Shown here: one piece after another, positions 7,688-11,561 of the stretch | Layout of the letters: every line of letters starts with the position of its first letter | Position numbering within the stretch: position 1 is the stretch's first letter | Source of the DNA: Hylemonella sp. | Lineage (GTDB): Bacteria; Pseudomonadota; Gammaproteobacteria; Burkholderiales; Burkholderiaceae_C | DNA length: 64,000 nt | Direction of reading: 5' to 3' | NCBI RefSeq assembly: GCF_027532185.1 | Contig: NZ_JAPZSV010000005.1 | Span: 124,001 to 188,000 of the forward strand | The notes under the pieces: generated by a model | Seen by the model: the letters and a program-made list of their open reading frames with translations, nothing else | The model's database searches: none | What the model was told of the DNA's origin: nothing | Translations under genes and position numbers: made by a program

Positions 7688-8302
7688 TCAGCGGGTGAAA
7701 GCAAGACGCAAGCCGAAGCCGATCAGGCAGAGGCCGGCGAGTTTCTCGAGCACGCGGCCGACCAGGGGGTTGGCGCGCAGGTGCCCGGCCAGGTGGTGCG
7801 TGAGCAGGGTCATGCCCAGGCCGTAGAGAAACGTCAGGAAAGCGATGGTCACGGCCATGAAACCGAAGGTCCACAGACCCTGGTGCGTGGCCGGGTCGAC
7901 GAAGAGCGGGAAGAAGGCCAGGTAGAACATGATGGCCTTGGGGTTGAGCAGGGTGATGACCATGGCCTGCTTTAGGTAGTGGCCGGCCTTGATGTTGAGC
8001 ACGGGCGCCGCGCCCGGCTTGGCCAGCAGCATCTGCACCCCCAGCCAGGCCAGGTAGGCCGCCCCTCCCCACTGCAACAGGTTGAAGGCCGTCGGGTAGG
8101 CGATCAGCAGCGCAGCCACACCGGCCACGGCCGCCCACATCAGCACCTGGTCCCCGAGGATCACCCCTAGGGTGGCGGCCAGTCCGCCGCGCACCCCGCC
8201 CTTGCTGGTGGAGGTGATCAGCGCCAGATTGCCGGGGCCCGGGATCAGCAAAAAGATGATGATGGTGACGACGAAGGCACCGTAATCGGCAACGCCAAAC
8301 AT
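7688..8302 (-). CDS. LysE/RhtB family exporter
   Basis: 204 residues with about six hydrophobic segments. The family signature IPGPGNLALI lies near residues 20-29 and LLNPKAIMFYLAFFP in the middle. LysE/RhtB proteins export amino acids and related metabolites with proton antiport; the substrate cannot be read from sequence. It sits between rsmG and parA, separated from parA by 30 bp and from rsmG by a 567-bp non-coding region holding the palindromic element. Confidence 0.9.
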   Translation of the reverse strand: MFGVADYGAFVVTIIIFLLIPGPGNLALITSTSKGGVRGGLAATLGVILGDQVLMWAAVAGVAALLIAYPTAFNLLQWGGAAYLAWLGVQMLLAKPGAAPVLNIKAGHYLKQAMVITLLNPKAIMFYLAFFPLFVDPATHQGLWTFGFMAVTIAFLTFLYGLGMTLLTHHLAGHLRANPLVGRVLEKLAGLCLIGFGLRLAFTR

Positions 8303-8368
8303 GGGGATTTCTTCGGAAACGGAAGGGTGCAGTGTACGGCAGGAATTCTGGCGTTCCGGCTTCGGTTT

Positions 8369-8384
8369 TGTTTCACGTGGAACG
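8369..8384. other. parS: parS-like centromere site 1
   Basis: TGTTTCACGTGGAACG matches the ParB site consensus TGTTNCACGTGNAACA, with one deviation at the last base. It lies about 65 bp upstream of the lysE start in non-coding DNA, just outside the left arm of the palindromic element. Confidence 0.85.
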
Positions 8385-8405
8385 TTTCTGGGTCGCTGCG
8401 TTTTT

Positions 8406-8862
8406 GCCTGCGGCGCTTTTGTAATCCCCCCCTATCCCCCCCGCCCCTTTCCACCACCGCCGGGGTGGAAAGGGGAGCCTGGATTTGGTTGCTGGTTTTC
8501 TGGCTACGCTTCTACGAAACGGGGCGGCGCCACCGGCACTTTGTGCCGAGATTTCTCTGAGCCGGTCGTAGTAAACAGCTGCAAATCCGTGCGCCACGGG
8601 CGGCGGTCGTTTCGACCTGCCGCGATCGAGTCTGAAGTTTTTCTCGATGCTGGCGCGTAGCTGCCAGCCGGGGGAGCTCCCGCCCGGAGCCGTTAACTAC
8701 GACCAGCTCCTGGGAATGCAGGCACCCCAGTCCGGTCCGCAACCTCCCGTAACGTAGAAGCGTAGCCGGCGCGACGAGGTCAAATCCAGGCTCCCTTCTC
8801 TACCCCGGCGGGGGTAGAGAAGGGCGGGGGGATGAGTGGGGGGTTACAAAAGCGCCGCAGGC
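8406..8862. repeat. 457-bp nested inverted-repeat element, possible structured RNA or MITE-like element
   Basis: The 19-bp outer termini at 8406-8424 and 8844-8862 are perfect inverted repeats (GCCTGCGGCGC... / ...GCGCCGCAGGC). Similarity between arms continues inward with gaps: GGAGCCTGGATTT and GGCTACGCTTCTACG recur in inverted form near 8473-8515 and 8753-8795. Each arm carries a long hairpin, 12-bp stem at 8444-8475 and 14-bp stem at 8793-8824. The centre is closed by a 22-bp stem (8559-8580 with 8688-8709, 19 of 22 identical) around five small hairpins. No open reading frame or transposase is plausible inside. The element fills most of the rsmG-lysE gap (8303-8869). Confidence 0.8.
8559..8709. 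ncRNA. Candidate multi-branched structured RNA core
   Basis: Paired segments read on the plus strand: closing stem 8559-8580/8688-8709; CCGTG/CACGG 8587-8599; GCGGCGGTCG/CGACC-GCCGC 8600-8623 with one bulge; ATCGAG/CTCGAT 8625-8648; GCTGGC/GCCAGC 8649-8668; CCGGG/CCCGG 8668-8687. Almost every base falls into a helix. Which strand is transcribed, if any, is unknown. A DNA cruciform or the remnant of a mobile element would look the same, so ncRNA is an inference. Confidence 0.35.
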
Positions 8863-8869
8863 AAGGCAC

Positions 8870-9538
8870 TTAGACTGAAGAAGAAAGCCGGAGCCAAACA
8901 AGACACCGCTCGGCAGCGAGCCCAGGAACCGACAACTGTTCCACGTGAAACACCTCCACATCCGCCGGCAAAACCGCCAACTCGTCGGCGGGATGCTTCC
9001 CCTTCATCGCCATCCAGACCCCCGCCGGCGCCAGGGCCGAGCGCGACCAGGACACAAAGTCGAACAGGGAGGCAAAGGCCCGGGCGCTGACCACGTCGTA
9101 GTGGTCGTCGAGGTTTTCCACCCGGGCGTGCAGGCCCTTGAGATTGGGTAGCTTCAGCATGAGGGCCGCCTGCTGGATGAAGGTGGCTTTCTTGGCCACC
9201 GTGTCCACGCAGCTCACGGCGATGTCCGGGCAGCAGATGGCGATGACCACGCCGGGCAGTCCGGCGCCGGAACCGACGTCGAGCAAGCGCAAGCCCTGCC
9301 CGTCCACCGGCTGGCGGCCGGACAGTTGCTGCCGCAGCGGGCGGATGACGGCCAAGCTGTCGAGCAGGTGATGGGTCAGCATCTCTTCGGGCAAGCGCAC
9401 GGCCGTGAGGTTGTAGACCTTGTTCCACTTCTGGATCAGGGCCAGATAGTCCAGCAGCTTCGTGATCTGGGCATCGGACAGGTCCAGGCCGAGGTCGGCC
9501 GCCCCGGAAGTCAGGGCGGTTTGGAGATCTGCGGTCAT
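8870..9538 (-). CDS. rsmG: 16S rRNA (guanine-527-N7)-methyltransferase RsmG
   Basis: 222 residues. It carries the RsmG hallmarks WNKVYNLTAVR (38-48), HHLLDSL, and the SAM motif LLDVGSGAGLPG (85-96), followed by SVDTVAKKATF-like and ARAF segments. It methylates G527 of 16S rRNA. The start at 9538 gives the usual RsmG N terminus; upstream in-frame codons would add an Arg/Ser-rich stretch not typical of the family. The 3' end of the gene contains parS site 2, which encodes FHVEQ. It is downstream of mnmG with a 58-bp gap. Confidence 0.94.
   Translation of the reverse strand: MTADLQTALTSGAADLGLDLSDAQITKLLDYLALIQKWNKVYNLTAVRLPEEMLTHHLLDSLAVIRPLRQQLSGRQPVDGQGLRLLDVGSGAGLPGVVIAICCPDIAVSCVDTVAKKATFIQQAALMLKLPNLKGLHARVENLDDHYDVVSARAFASLFDFVSWSRSALAPAGVWMAMKGKHPADELAVLPADVEVFHVEQLSVPGLAAERCLVWLRLSSSV
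8937..8952. other. parS: parS-like centromere site 2 (inside rsmG)
   Basis: TGTTCCACGTGAAACA is a full match to the ParB recognition consensus. It lies within the last codons of rsmG, just outside the right arm of the palindromic element. Confidence 0.93.
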
Positions 9539-9596
9539 AGGCAGGCTGCGCTCTGACGAGCTGCGTTGCGAGCGACTTGGGGCGACCGGGCGTCGC

Positions 9597-11561
9597 TCAT
9601 GCCGCCTCGGTCTCTGCGACCTTGGCGAAACCGCGGAAGCCACCTTTTTTCAGATGGATCAGCAGCAGGGAGATGCTGGCCGGGGTGATGCCAGAGATGC
9701 GGCTGGCCTGGCCCAGGGTTTCCGGGCGGTGCTTCTGCAGCTTCTGCCGGGCCTCGATGGACAGGGCCGTGACGGCCATGTAGTCCAGGTCGGCCGGCAA
9801 TTTGAGGTTTTCGTAATGGGCGGCACGCTCCACTTCGTCCTTCTGGCGATCGATGTAGCCCGAATACTTGGCCCCGATCTCGATCTGCTCGACCACGGTT
9901 TCGGTCAGCTCGCCCAGCGTTTCACGTGAAACATCGGGGTTGGCGTACTTGCCGCCGTCCAGGGACATGAGCCCGGCATAGCTCACATCGGGCCGGCGCA
10001 ACAGATCAAAAAGGTGGTACTCGTGGTCGATGGCCTTGCCCAGCACCCGCTCGGCCTCGGCCGCGGAGAGGATGCGCGGGTTGACCCAGGTGGCCTTGAG
10101 GCGTTCGGTTTCACGTGAAACAGCGTCGCGCTTGCGGCAGAAAGCATCCCAGCGGGCGTCGTCCACCAGGCCCAGCTGGCGGCCGGTTTCGGTCAGGCGC
10201 AGGTCGGCATTGTCTTCGCGCAGCTGCAGGCGAAACTCGGCCCGGCTGGTGAACATGCGGTAGGGCTCGGTCACGCCCTGGGTGGTCAGATCGTCGACCA
10301 GCACGCCCAGATAGGCTTCGTCGCGGCGCGGCTGCCATGGGCCGTCGCCCCGGCACTGGAGCGCGGCGTTGATGCCGGCAAACAGGCCCTGGGCCGCAGC
10401 CTCTTCATAACCCGTGGTGCCGTTGATCTGGCCGGCAAAGAACAGGCCATTGATCTGTTTGGTCTCGAAGCTGCCCTTGAGGGAGCGCGGGTCGAAGTAG
10501 TCGTACTCGATGGCGTAGCCGGGCCGCAGGATGTGGGCGTTCTCCAGCCCCTTCATGGAGCGGACCAGTTCGTACTGAATGTCAAAGGGCAGGCTGGTCG
10601 AGATGCCGTTGGGGTAGTACTCGTTCGTCGTCAGGCCCTCGGGCTCCAGGAAGATCTGATGGCTGTCCTTGTCGGCGAAGCGGTTGATCTTGTCTTCCAC
10701 GCTAGGACAGTAGCGTGGCCCCACGCCCTCGATCTTGCCCGTGAACATGGGGCTGCGGTCAAAGCCGGAGCGGATGATCTCGTGCGTGCGCTCGTTGGTG
10801 TGCGTGATCCAGCAGGGCATCTGCTGCGGGTGCATGGCTGCGCTGCCCATGAAGCTGAACACTGGGACCGCCCCCTCGTTCACGCCGCCGGGCATGCCGT
10901 CGCCCGGCTGCTCGATGCACTGCGAAAAGTCGATGCTGCGGCCGTCGATGCGCGGCGGGGTGCCGGTCTTCAAGCGCCCTTGCGGCAGCTTGAGCTCCTT
11001 GAGCCGGGCCGAAAGGCTGACCGCCGGCGGGTCGCCTGCACGGCCGGCCGCGTAGTTGTTCAGGCCCACGTGGATCTTGCCGTCCAGGAAGGTGCCCGCC
11101 GTCAGCACCACAGTGCGGCTGCGGAAACGGATGCCCACCTGGGTGACGGCGCCGACCACGCGGTCGCCCTCCACCATCAGGTCGTCCACGGCCTGCTGGA
11201 ACAGCCAGAGATGGGGCTGGTTTTCCAGGCGGCGGCGGATGGCCGCCTTGTAAAGAACGCGATCGGCCTGGGCGCGGGTGGCGCGCACGGCCGGACCCTT
11301 GGAGCTGTTGAGGATGCGGAACTGGATGCCGCCCTCGTCGGTGGCGATGGCCATGGCCCCACCGAGCGCGTCCACCTCTTTGACCAGGTGGCCCTTGCCG
11401 ATGCCGCCGATCGAGGGGTTGCAGCTCATCTGACCCAGGGTCTCGATGTTGTGCGTCAGCAGCAGGGTCTTGGCGCCCATGCGCGCAGCGGCCAACGCGG
11501 CTTCCGTGCCGGCATGACCGCCGCCAACGACGATGACATCGAATTCTTGTGGGTAGAGCAT
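9597..11561 (-). CDS. mnmG: tRNA uridine-5-carboxymethylaminomethyl modification enzyme MnmG (GidA)
   Basis: 654 residues. The FAD-binding motif [19 protein letters not shown] is at the N terminus, followed by [26 protein letters not shown] and the C-terminal GidA-associated domain ending with [16 protein letters not shown]. With MnmE (encoded at 53818-55218) it modifies U34 of certain tRNAs. The start at 11561 gives the standard [16 protein letters not shown] terminus; the longer upstream frame has no homology-like content. Two parS sites lie in its 3' third. Confidence 0.97.
9918..9933. other. parS: parS-like centromere site 3 (inside mnmG)
   Basis: CGTTTCACGTGAAACA differs from TGTTTCACGTGAAACA only at the first base. 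On the coding strand of mnmG it encodes VSRET. Confidence 0.92.
10107..10122. other. parS: parS-like centromere site 4 (inside mnmG)
   Basis: GGTTTCACGTGAAACA differs from the consensus only at the first base. It encodes a second VSRET in mnmG, 189 bp from site 3, which is an exact multiple of three. Confidence 0.9.

Follow-up and report, generated by a model that had tools for sequence, protein, structure and literature searches.

The gap between rsmG and lysE in a Hylemonella sp. chromosome contains a long palindrome, and the question is what kind of element this is. An earlier note, made from the DNA letters alone, described it as a 457-bp palindrome and suggested that it could be a MITE-like relic, a structured RNA or a chromosomal organising element. 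The window in which it lies, i.e., the whole stretch of DNA that was analysed, is 64 kb long (64,000 nucleotides). The palindrome is real, and its extent differs slightly from that description: it is imperfect, runs from 8404 to 8864 and measures 461 bp, and it lies between two genes that are both on the minus strand. Its tips form an inverted repeat which is perfect, as claimed, and which is 21 bp long, two more than the 19 given, with no outward extension of the pairing. That the arms match inward with changes is borne out as well: going inward from the ends, 84 nt match at 86% (tips counted in), after which come one block of 22 nt (91%) and one of 38 nt (74%). The features are the following, with the evidence in brackets.

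7688 to 8302, minus strand: LysE-type translocator gene, downstream of the element (Pfam PF01810)
8404 to 8864, no strand: whole palindromic element, the family copy at locus C, rsmG-lysE (inverted repeats, fold z of −15.6, homologous copies)
8404 to 8424, plus strand: left tip, 21-bp perfect inverted repeat with 8844-8864 (repeat search; nearly locus-specific)
8425 to 8489, plus strand: left end module with C-run, 12-bp hairpin (8444-8475) and GATTT box, common to other genera (model R1 match, hairpin)
8508 to 8571, plus strand: left conserved motif pair GCTTCTA...GGTCGTAG (motif matches; conservation in 118 arms)
8572 to 8696, no strand: core, flanked by the inner motifs and containing small hairpins (A/C/I subfamily, consensus alignment)
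8697 to 8761, minus strand: right pair of GCTTCTA/GGTCGTAG motifs, inverted (motif matches; conservation in 118 arms)
8779 to 8843, minus strand: right end module, same content inverted, hairpin within 8784-8833 (model R1 match, hairpin)
8844 to 8864, minus strand: right tip, partner of 8404-8424 (repeat search; nearly locus-specific)
8870 to 9643, minus strand: rsmG/gidB open reading frame as delimited mechanically, upstream of the element, its start taken as near 9538 (Pfam PF02527)

Among inverted repeats confined to 900 bp, this is the longest in the window, the runner-up being 40 nt at 73%. When the element is folded as single-stranded DNA, the predicted free energy is −172.7 kcal/mol, compared with −99.4 ± 4.7 kcal/mol for 100 dinucleotide shuffles (z = −15.6). 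In a coarse fold scan with 277 segments of 460 bp and 10 simple shuffles each, out of register with the element, the two segments over it rank second and third, and the first is a coding gene. The 21-bp tips are nearly specific for this locus, since 13 of their 15 near matches in the genus are at rsmG-lysE copies; a near match of the tip in genome G010 has no arm attached. The part that is common to other copies begins inward of these tips, at the C-run near 8425. Palindromy reaching into the outer 50 bp was considered and rejected, the score within the same element (8.2) being close to those for different loci (8.1) and for shuffles (7.9). No transposase is found inside the element, in line with the earlier note, and coding by the mechanically listed reading frames that overlap it is rejected because motif spacing and length differ by single bases between copies. 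Plasmid and phage collections have no match to it, and the listings returned by word and sequence-string searches of the open-licence literature contain no description of it.

The element is not alone. Its own genome has matches at six places, and a DNA search finds matches in 15 of the 26 genomes of the genus, its own included, and none in the other 11. Judged by the named neighbours of its RsmG protein, the genus lies near Curvibacter. In all, 72 distinct copies were examined, of which 71 occupy ten orthologous gaps; they are not a census, the regions having been picked among the matches listed. The number arises as follows. A two-arm profile, run over 60 fetched regions and the window, gave 60 entries in which both arms were present, and three were added by hand; the regions from G003 and G004 have a single arm only, both at the fmdB-amidase locus H, and therefore look like remnants there. 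These 63 entries correspond to 62 copies, as the serS-ispH copy of G019 is split over two contig ends and was counted twice. To them are added a G021 copy at locus C, eight copies found with a loose motif pattern (reversed control, 0-4 matches per genome) and confirmed with the arm profile, and a short two-arm copy, G023:C29 (L440, 2247-2492), whose site is common to no other copy examined. Comparison of the flanks of the 63 entries gives nine orthologous gaps with 11, 10, 8, 7, 6, 6, 6, 5 and 4 members, and the eight motif-pattern copies contribute two to D, two to G, one to H and three to a new common locus, J. Most copies are roughly 390-490 bp long. The multiple copies and the conserved position between rsmG and lysE, both of which the earlier note had proposed to look for, are thus found, locus C being one of the ten gaps.

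The neighbours, as assigned by Pfam, are seryl-tRNA synthetase and LytB/IspH at locus A (serS-ispH), a Rieske oxygenase and an EamA transporter at B, RsmG and LysE at C, a TPP enzyme and a POR/DUF6537 protein at D, a spermidine-synthase-like protein and uracil-DNA glycosylase at E, a LysR regulator and an Mrp-like NTPase at F, two helicase/nuclease proteins at G, a formamidase and zinc-ribbon protein next to an amidase at H, and a MacB/FtsX permease next to a reading frame without assignment at I. The pair at G fits AddA and AddB, and we take it as addB-addA; fmdB is likewise our own name for the zinc-ribbon gene at H. In the representatives of the nine loci the gene pairs are co-directional in eight, and at locus I they are divergent. 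At locus E, the copy of G007 possesses a third arm, which lies beside an N run.

Each half of the element has a C-run and a hairpin with about 12-14 pairs, together with a GATTT box, the two motifs (GCTTCTA and GGTCGTAG) and a part of the core, in which there are small hairpins. When a local fold is computed as a consensus over the whole arm, only the end hairpin appears. The inner arm is otherwise variable: only 29 of 155 columns reach 95% identity in 118 arms, the median being 69%, whereas 14 of the 15 positions of GCTTCTA plus GGTCGTAG are at least 95% conserved, and the pair spans 63-66 nt among the matches listed. This conservation would suggest that the inner motifs are bound by a protein.

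In a tree of the inner arm parts the halves fall into two kinds, X and Y, and the loci into three subfamilies, {A,C,I}, {B,D,E,F} and {G,H}. Copies from different loci intermix inside a subfamily, which indicates exchange between loci. At six loci (A, C, E, G, H and I) both orientations occur, with X first or X second depending on the species; two locus-A entries have no orientation call, and orientation at B, D and F was assigned by us from the inner-arm tree, with which the N-containing F_G012 disagreed. In the locus-G copies of G008 and G023 both halves group with Y. In six copies from different loci (L109, L150, L144, L149, L111 and L135) the hairpin of one arm is split by a similar insert with two small hairpins, as if arm variants had been exchanged between loci. 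If the two arms co-evolved over the whole stem, X and Y should resemble each other more within an element than between species. The identity of X and Y within an element is 0.57 in the mid part and 0.55 in the inner part, and between species it is 0.58 and 0.56. Co-evolution over the whole stem is therefore rejected: homogenisation does not extend over the entire arms, and the hairpins alone look templated.

The distribution over genomes can be followed at four loci, where the element is present in 10 of 25 genomes examined (A), 10 of 24 (B), 9 of 23 (C) and 8 of 24 (G). On a four-gene tree this requires at least 3, 3, 4 and 6 changes, respectively; the pattern at A and B fits few gains and several losses, and G is less clear. 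Complete filled serS-ispH gaps without N padding measure 552-638 bp, and the empty gaps of ten relatives measure 33-71 bp including short anchors. When filled and empty gaps are compared at A, B, G and C, the flanks are too diverged to align well and no target duplication is visible. The rsmG gap of G019 keeps an apparent piece of the left tip, which suggests deletion. In G022 the DNA search finds no element, and its gaps at A, B and G (L359, L414 and L388) are empty, while copies abound in its sisters G007 and G014; it may have lost all of them, or the tree or the assembly may be at fault.

Beyond the genus, the DNA search matches 20 of 299 genomes in a sample of the family. The end module, as recognised by the covariance model R1, occurs in 27 of 399 family genomes and in 18 of the 141 Comamonadaceae genera sampled, in a scan that scored 13 candidates per genome and may therefore miss a partner elsewhere. 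Profile comparison relates the interiors in G027, G051 and G175 to the copies of the genus; in others the match is confined to the ends. Thirteen outside elements were checked: self-complementarity extends over 369-544 nt at 68-81% in 11 of them and is limited to the ends in the remaining two. Two genomes contain near-identical copies, 98.5% over 476 bp with different left flanks in G051 and 93.8% over 401 bp in G158, and recent duplication is therefore suggested. A long version in G027 (L330, 1538-4122) measures 2.57 kb and has two reading frames of 221 and 374 amino acids, neither of which has a Pfam or PADLOC match. The centres of some outside elements (L055, L060, L072 and L349; L348) contain further palindromes, nested in palindromes, and one of these resembles hairpins beside RAYT genes in L284 and L285.

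The strangest result is that gaps are re-used. Six of the 49 outside loci compared share their gap with the genus. The addB-addA gap is re-used in G244, G313 and G154, which belong to one genus, and in G064, with mostly different interiors and, for G313, on the addA side only among the matches listed. The serS-ispH gap is re-used in G027 with a partly related interior, and the fmdB-amidase gap in G236 by about 100 bp that consist of two fused end modules only. A few other outside pairs have a nearby gene in common with the genus and not the gap. Within the genus, the serS-ispH gaps of G002 (L365), G003 (L362) and G004 (L361) are filled by another, strongly palindromic sequence, 471-482 bp long, whose fold z values range from −12.3 to −13.8.

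Consider now how far these results could be explained by a structured regulatory RNA transcribed from the element. The predicted structure is strong, the end hairpin covaries, and the region 8280-8980 has five terminator-like sites where 1.0 is expected. The hairpin is 95.4% paired in 48 end modules, and 7 of its 14 pairs change on both sides; cells with double changes number 67, compared with 22.5 in shuffles, a count that kinship of the modules can also raise. One hairpin position is unpaired in 15 of the 48 modules. Against an RNA stands the complete absence, in the same 48 modules, of changes on one side of a pair, i.e., of G-U steps, through which compensatory changes are commonly held to pass (PMC8794818). 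A cruder count over 109 hairpins gives, out of 1526 pairs, 1446 Watson-Crick, 45 A-C, 10 G-T and 25 other. At co-directional loci, arm mismatches on the sense strand number 507 G-U versus 645 A-C, a count from which 8 of the 64 entries were dropped because they have N runs or are truncated. Folding was compared for 55 copies, 51 of them at co-directional loci, and only 15 of these 51 form a better fold on the sense strand than on the antisense strand. Rfam, searched with E up to 10, has no family above threshold, the best score inside the element being 20.6 bits compared with a gathering score of 88, and no promoter-like site is found around the element. Sense-strand RNA is thus unlikely, because the hairpin changes on two sides without G-U steps and the transcribed strand folds worse, and we regard a regulatory RNA as highly improbable, an antisense transcript being a residual possibility. 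Template switching is reported to produce double changes and to turn round the segment between the arms (PMC8604942), and the near absence of G-U steps therefore fits this process.

A role at the level of DNA is another matter. The element could be bound through its four inner motifs by a host protein (nucleoid-associated, or of replication or recombination) and take part in chromosome organisation, for which the conservation of GCTTCTA and GGTCGTAG against the low inner-column median, and the narrow span of the pair, speak. As the earlier note remarked, parS-like sites lie just beyond both ends, at 8370-8383 and 8938-8951. Among the fetched regions of the nine loci first found, such sites occur at rsmG-lysE only, the other eight having none, and G017, G018 and G019, which lack the element there, keep the parS on the lysE side. 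The flanking by parS looks incidental, a matter of neighbourhood, and the proposal of an organising element tied to parS is not upheld. Since 11 of the 26 genomes lack a match in the DNA search, any role is dispensable, and four of the loci are crowded into about 75 kb in G007 and G013 instead of being dispersed; a host-protein element is, all in all, a decidedly unlikely explanation. The re-use of gaps is the basis for yet another reading, in which certain operon gaps need a long hairpin of DNA or RNA, for example to separate the expression of two genes, so that position and structure are selected, sequence is not, and palindromes replace each other. The different palindromes in serS-ispH of G002, G003 and G004, the six outside loci in the gaps of the genus and the co-directional gene pairs in eight of nine representatives argue for such a need. 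The plain serS-ispH gaps of ten relatives, the empty gaps of G022 with filled ones in its sisters, and the small share of copies in which the sense strand is the better folder argue against it, and we hold it to be doubtful, though worth keeping in mind. The version confined to DNA, with place, size and foldability selected at serS-ispH within the genus and at addB-addA across genera, and with either unlike palindromes or unchanged ends around new interiors taking each other's place, is unlikely too.

The reading we favour, as somewhat more probable than its negation, is that the element belongs to an ancient, non-coding, two-ended palindromic repeat family which acts at the DNA level, once spread as a non-autonomous mobile element and is now inherited mostly vertically in fixed gaps. 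The copies have common ends, X and Y halves, conserved motifs and orthologous sites; they have flipped and mixed between loci, and they lack signatures of the RNA type. A trans-acting enzyme would have recognised the hairpin ends and moved the element. Replication template switching in the hairpins, together with recombination between the near-identical ends, may keep the ends matched and invert copies, and the palindrome would survive because the genus is without a recognised SbcCD nuclease. Several results fit the mobile-repeat reading less well. No transposase or relaxase partner is found, and the reading frames of the 2.57-kb version match nothing in Pfam or PADLOC; filled and empty sites align too poorly to display a target duplication; X and Y are no more alike within an element than across species, and 10 G-T stand beside 45 A-C among the 1526 pairs; near-complete fixation and re-use of gaps agree no less with a functional or targeted element than with a relic; and SbcD is missing also in members of the genus without the element.

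With respect to known systems, the element appears as a non-autonomous mobile repeat whose palindrome is deeper and more modular than is usual. Bacterial MITEs are miniature inverted-repeat transposable elements, short and non-coding. The present element is likewise short and non-coding, with inverted-repeat ends and several dispersed intergenic copies, but no parent insertion sequence with the same ends is found, the copies are almost all at orthologous sites, and the palindrome is unusually deep; in its own genome all end modules are within the six elements and none is on an autonomous insertion sequence. The element is not filed as a MITE because neither a transposase partner nor a target duplication is found. 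Of the three suggestions in the earlier note, the MITE-like relic nevertheless fits best: dispersed non-coding copies, conserved ends and near-identical copies in another genus agree with it, and the autonomous partner that would complete it is missing, so that MITE identity is not proved. The ERIC or IRU sequences of enterobacteria, about 127 bp long, palindromic and intergenic, resemble the element by description, also in that their mobiliser is not known; they differ in that the element measures roughly 390-490 bp and has two distinct halves, three subfamilies and changeable interiors. REP elements are 20-40 bp long, numerous and tied to the RAYT transposase (PMC3733652). REPs and REPINs share with the element the paired, inverted hairpin modules, and differ from its 65-position end module and its occurrence at about ten loci. 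RAYT as mobiliser is rejected, since Y1_Tnp genes are present in 25 of 26 genomes of the genus regardless of elements; the end module is absent from the ten RAYT surroundings that were fetched. Template-switch hairpins, finally, have the double compensatory changes and the inversion between arms in common with the element, but the reports concern yeast genes and RNA genes (PMC8604942, PMC8794818), and here the hairpins belong to a dispersed bacterial repeat.

Long palindromes are normally unstable in bacteria, and a perfect one of 460 bp is cut by SbcCD and kills E. coli (PMC4245961). Here, imperfect palindromes of about 460 bp survive at fixed sites from one species to the next, in a genus that has no recognised SbcD. 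In its 26 genomes no SbcD match passes the cut-off and one weak match is seen, while the control search matches 13 of 14 control genomes, 8 of 14 over the cut-off. A tie between the tolerance of palindromes and the missing SbcCD is our inference, since members of the genus without the element are equally without SbcD. The absence of SbcD from the 26 genomes is useful for studies of palindrome stability, and the family is natural material on how palindromes are made, kept matched and inverted. It could also show whether compensatory changes like those of RNA arise without RNA.
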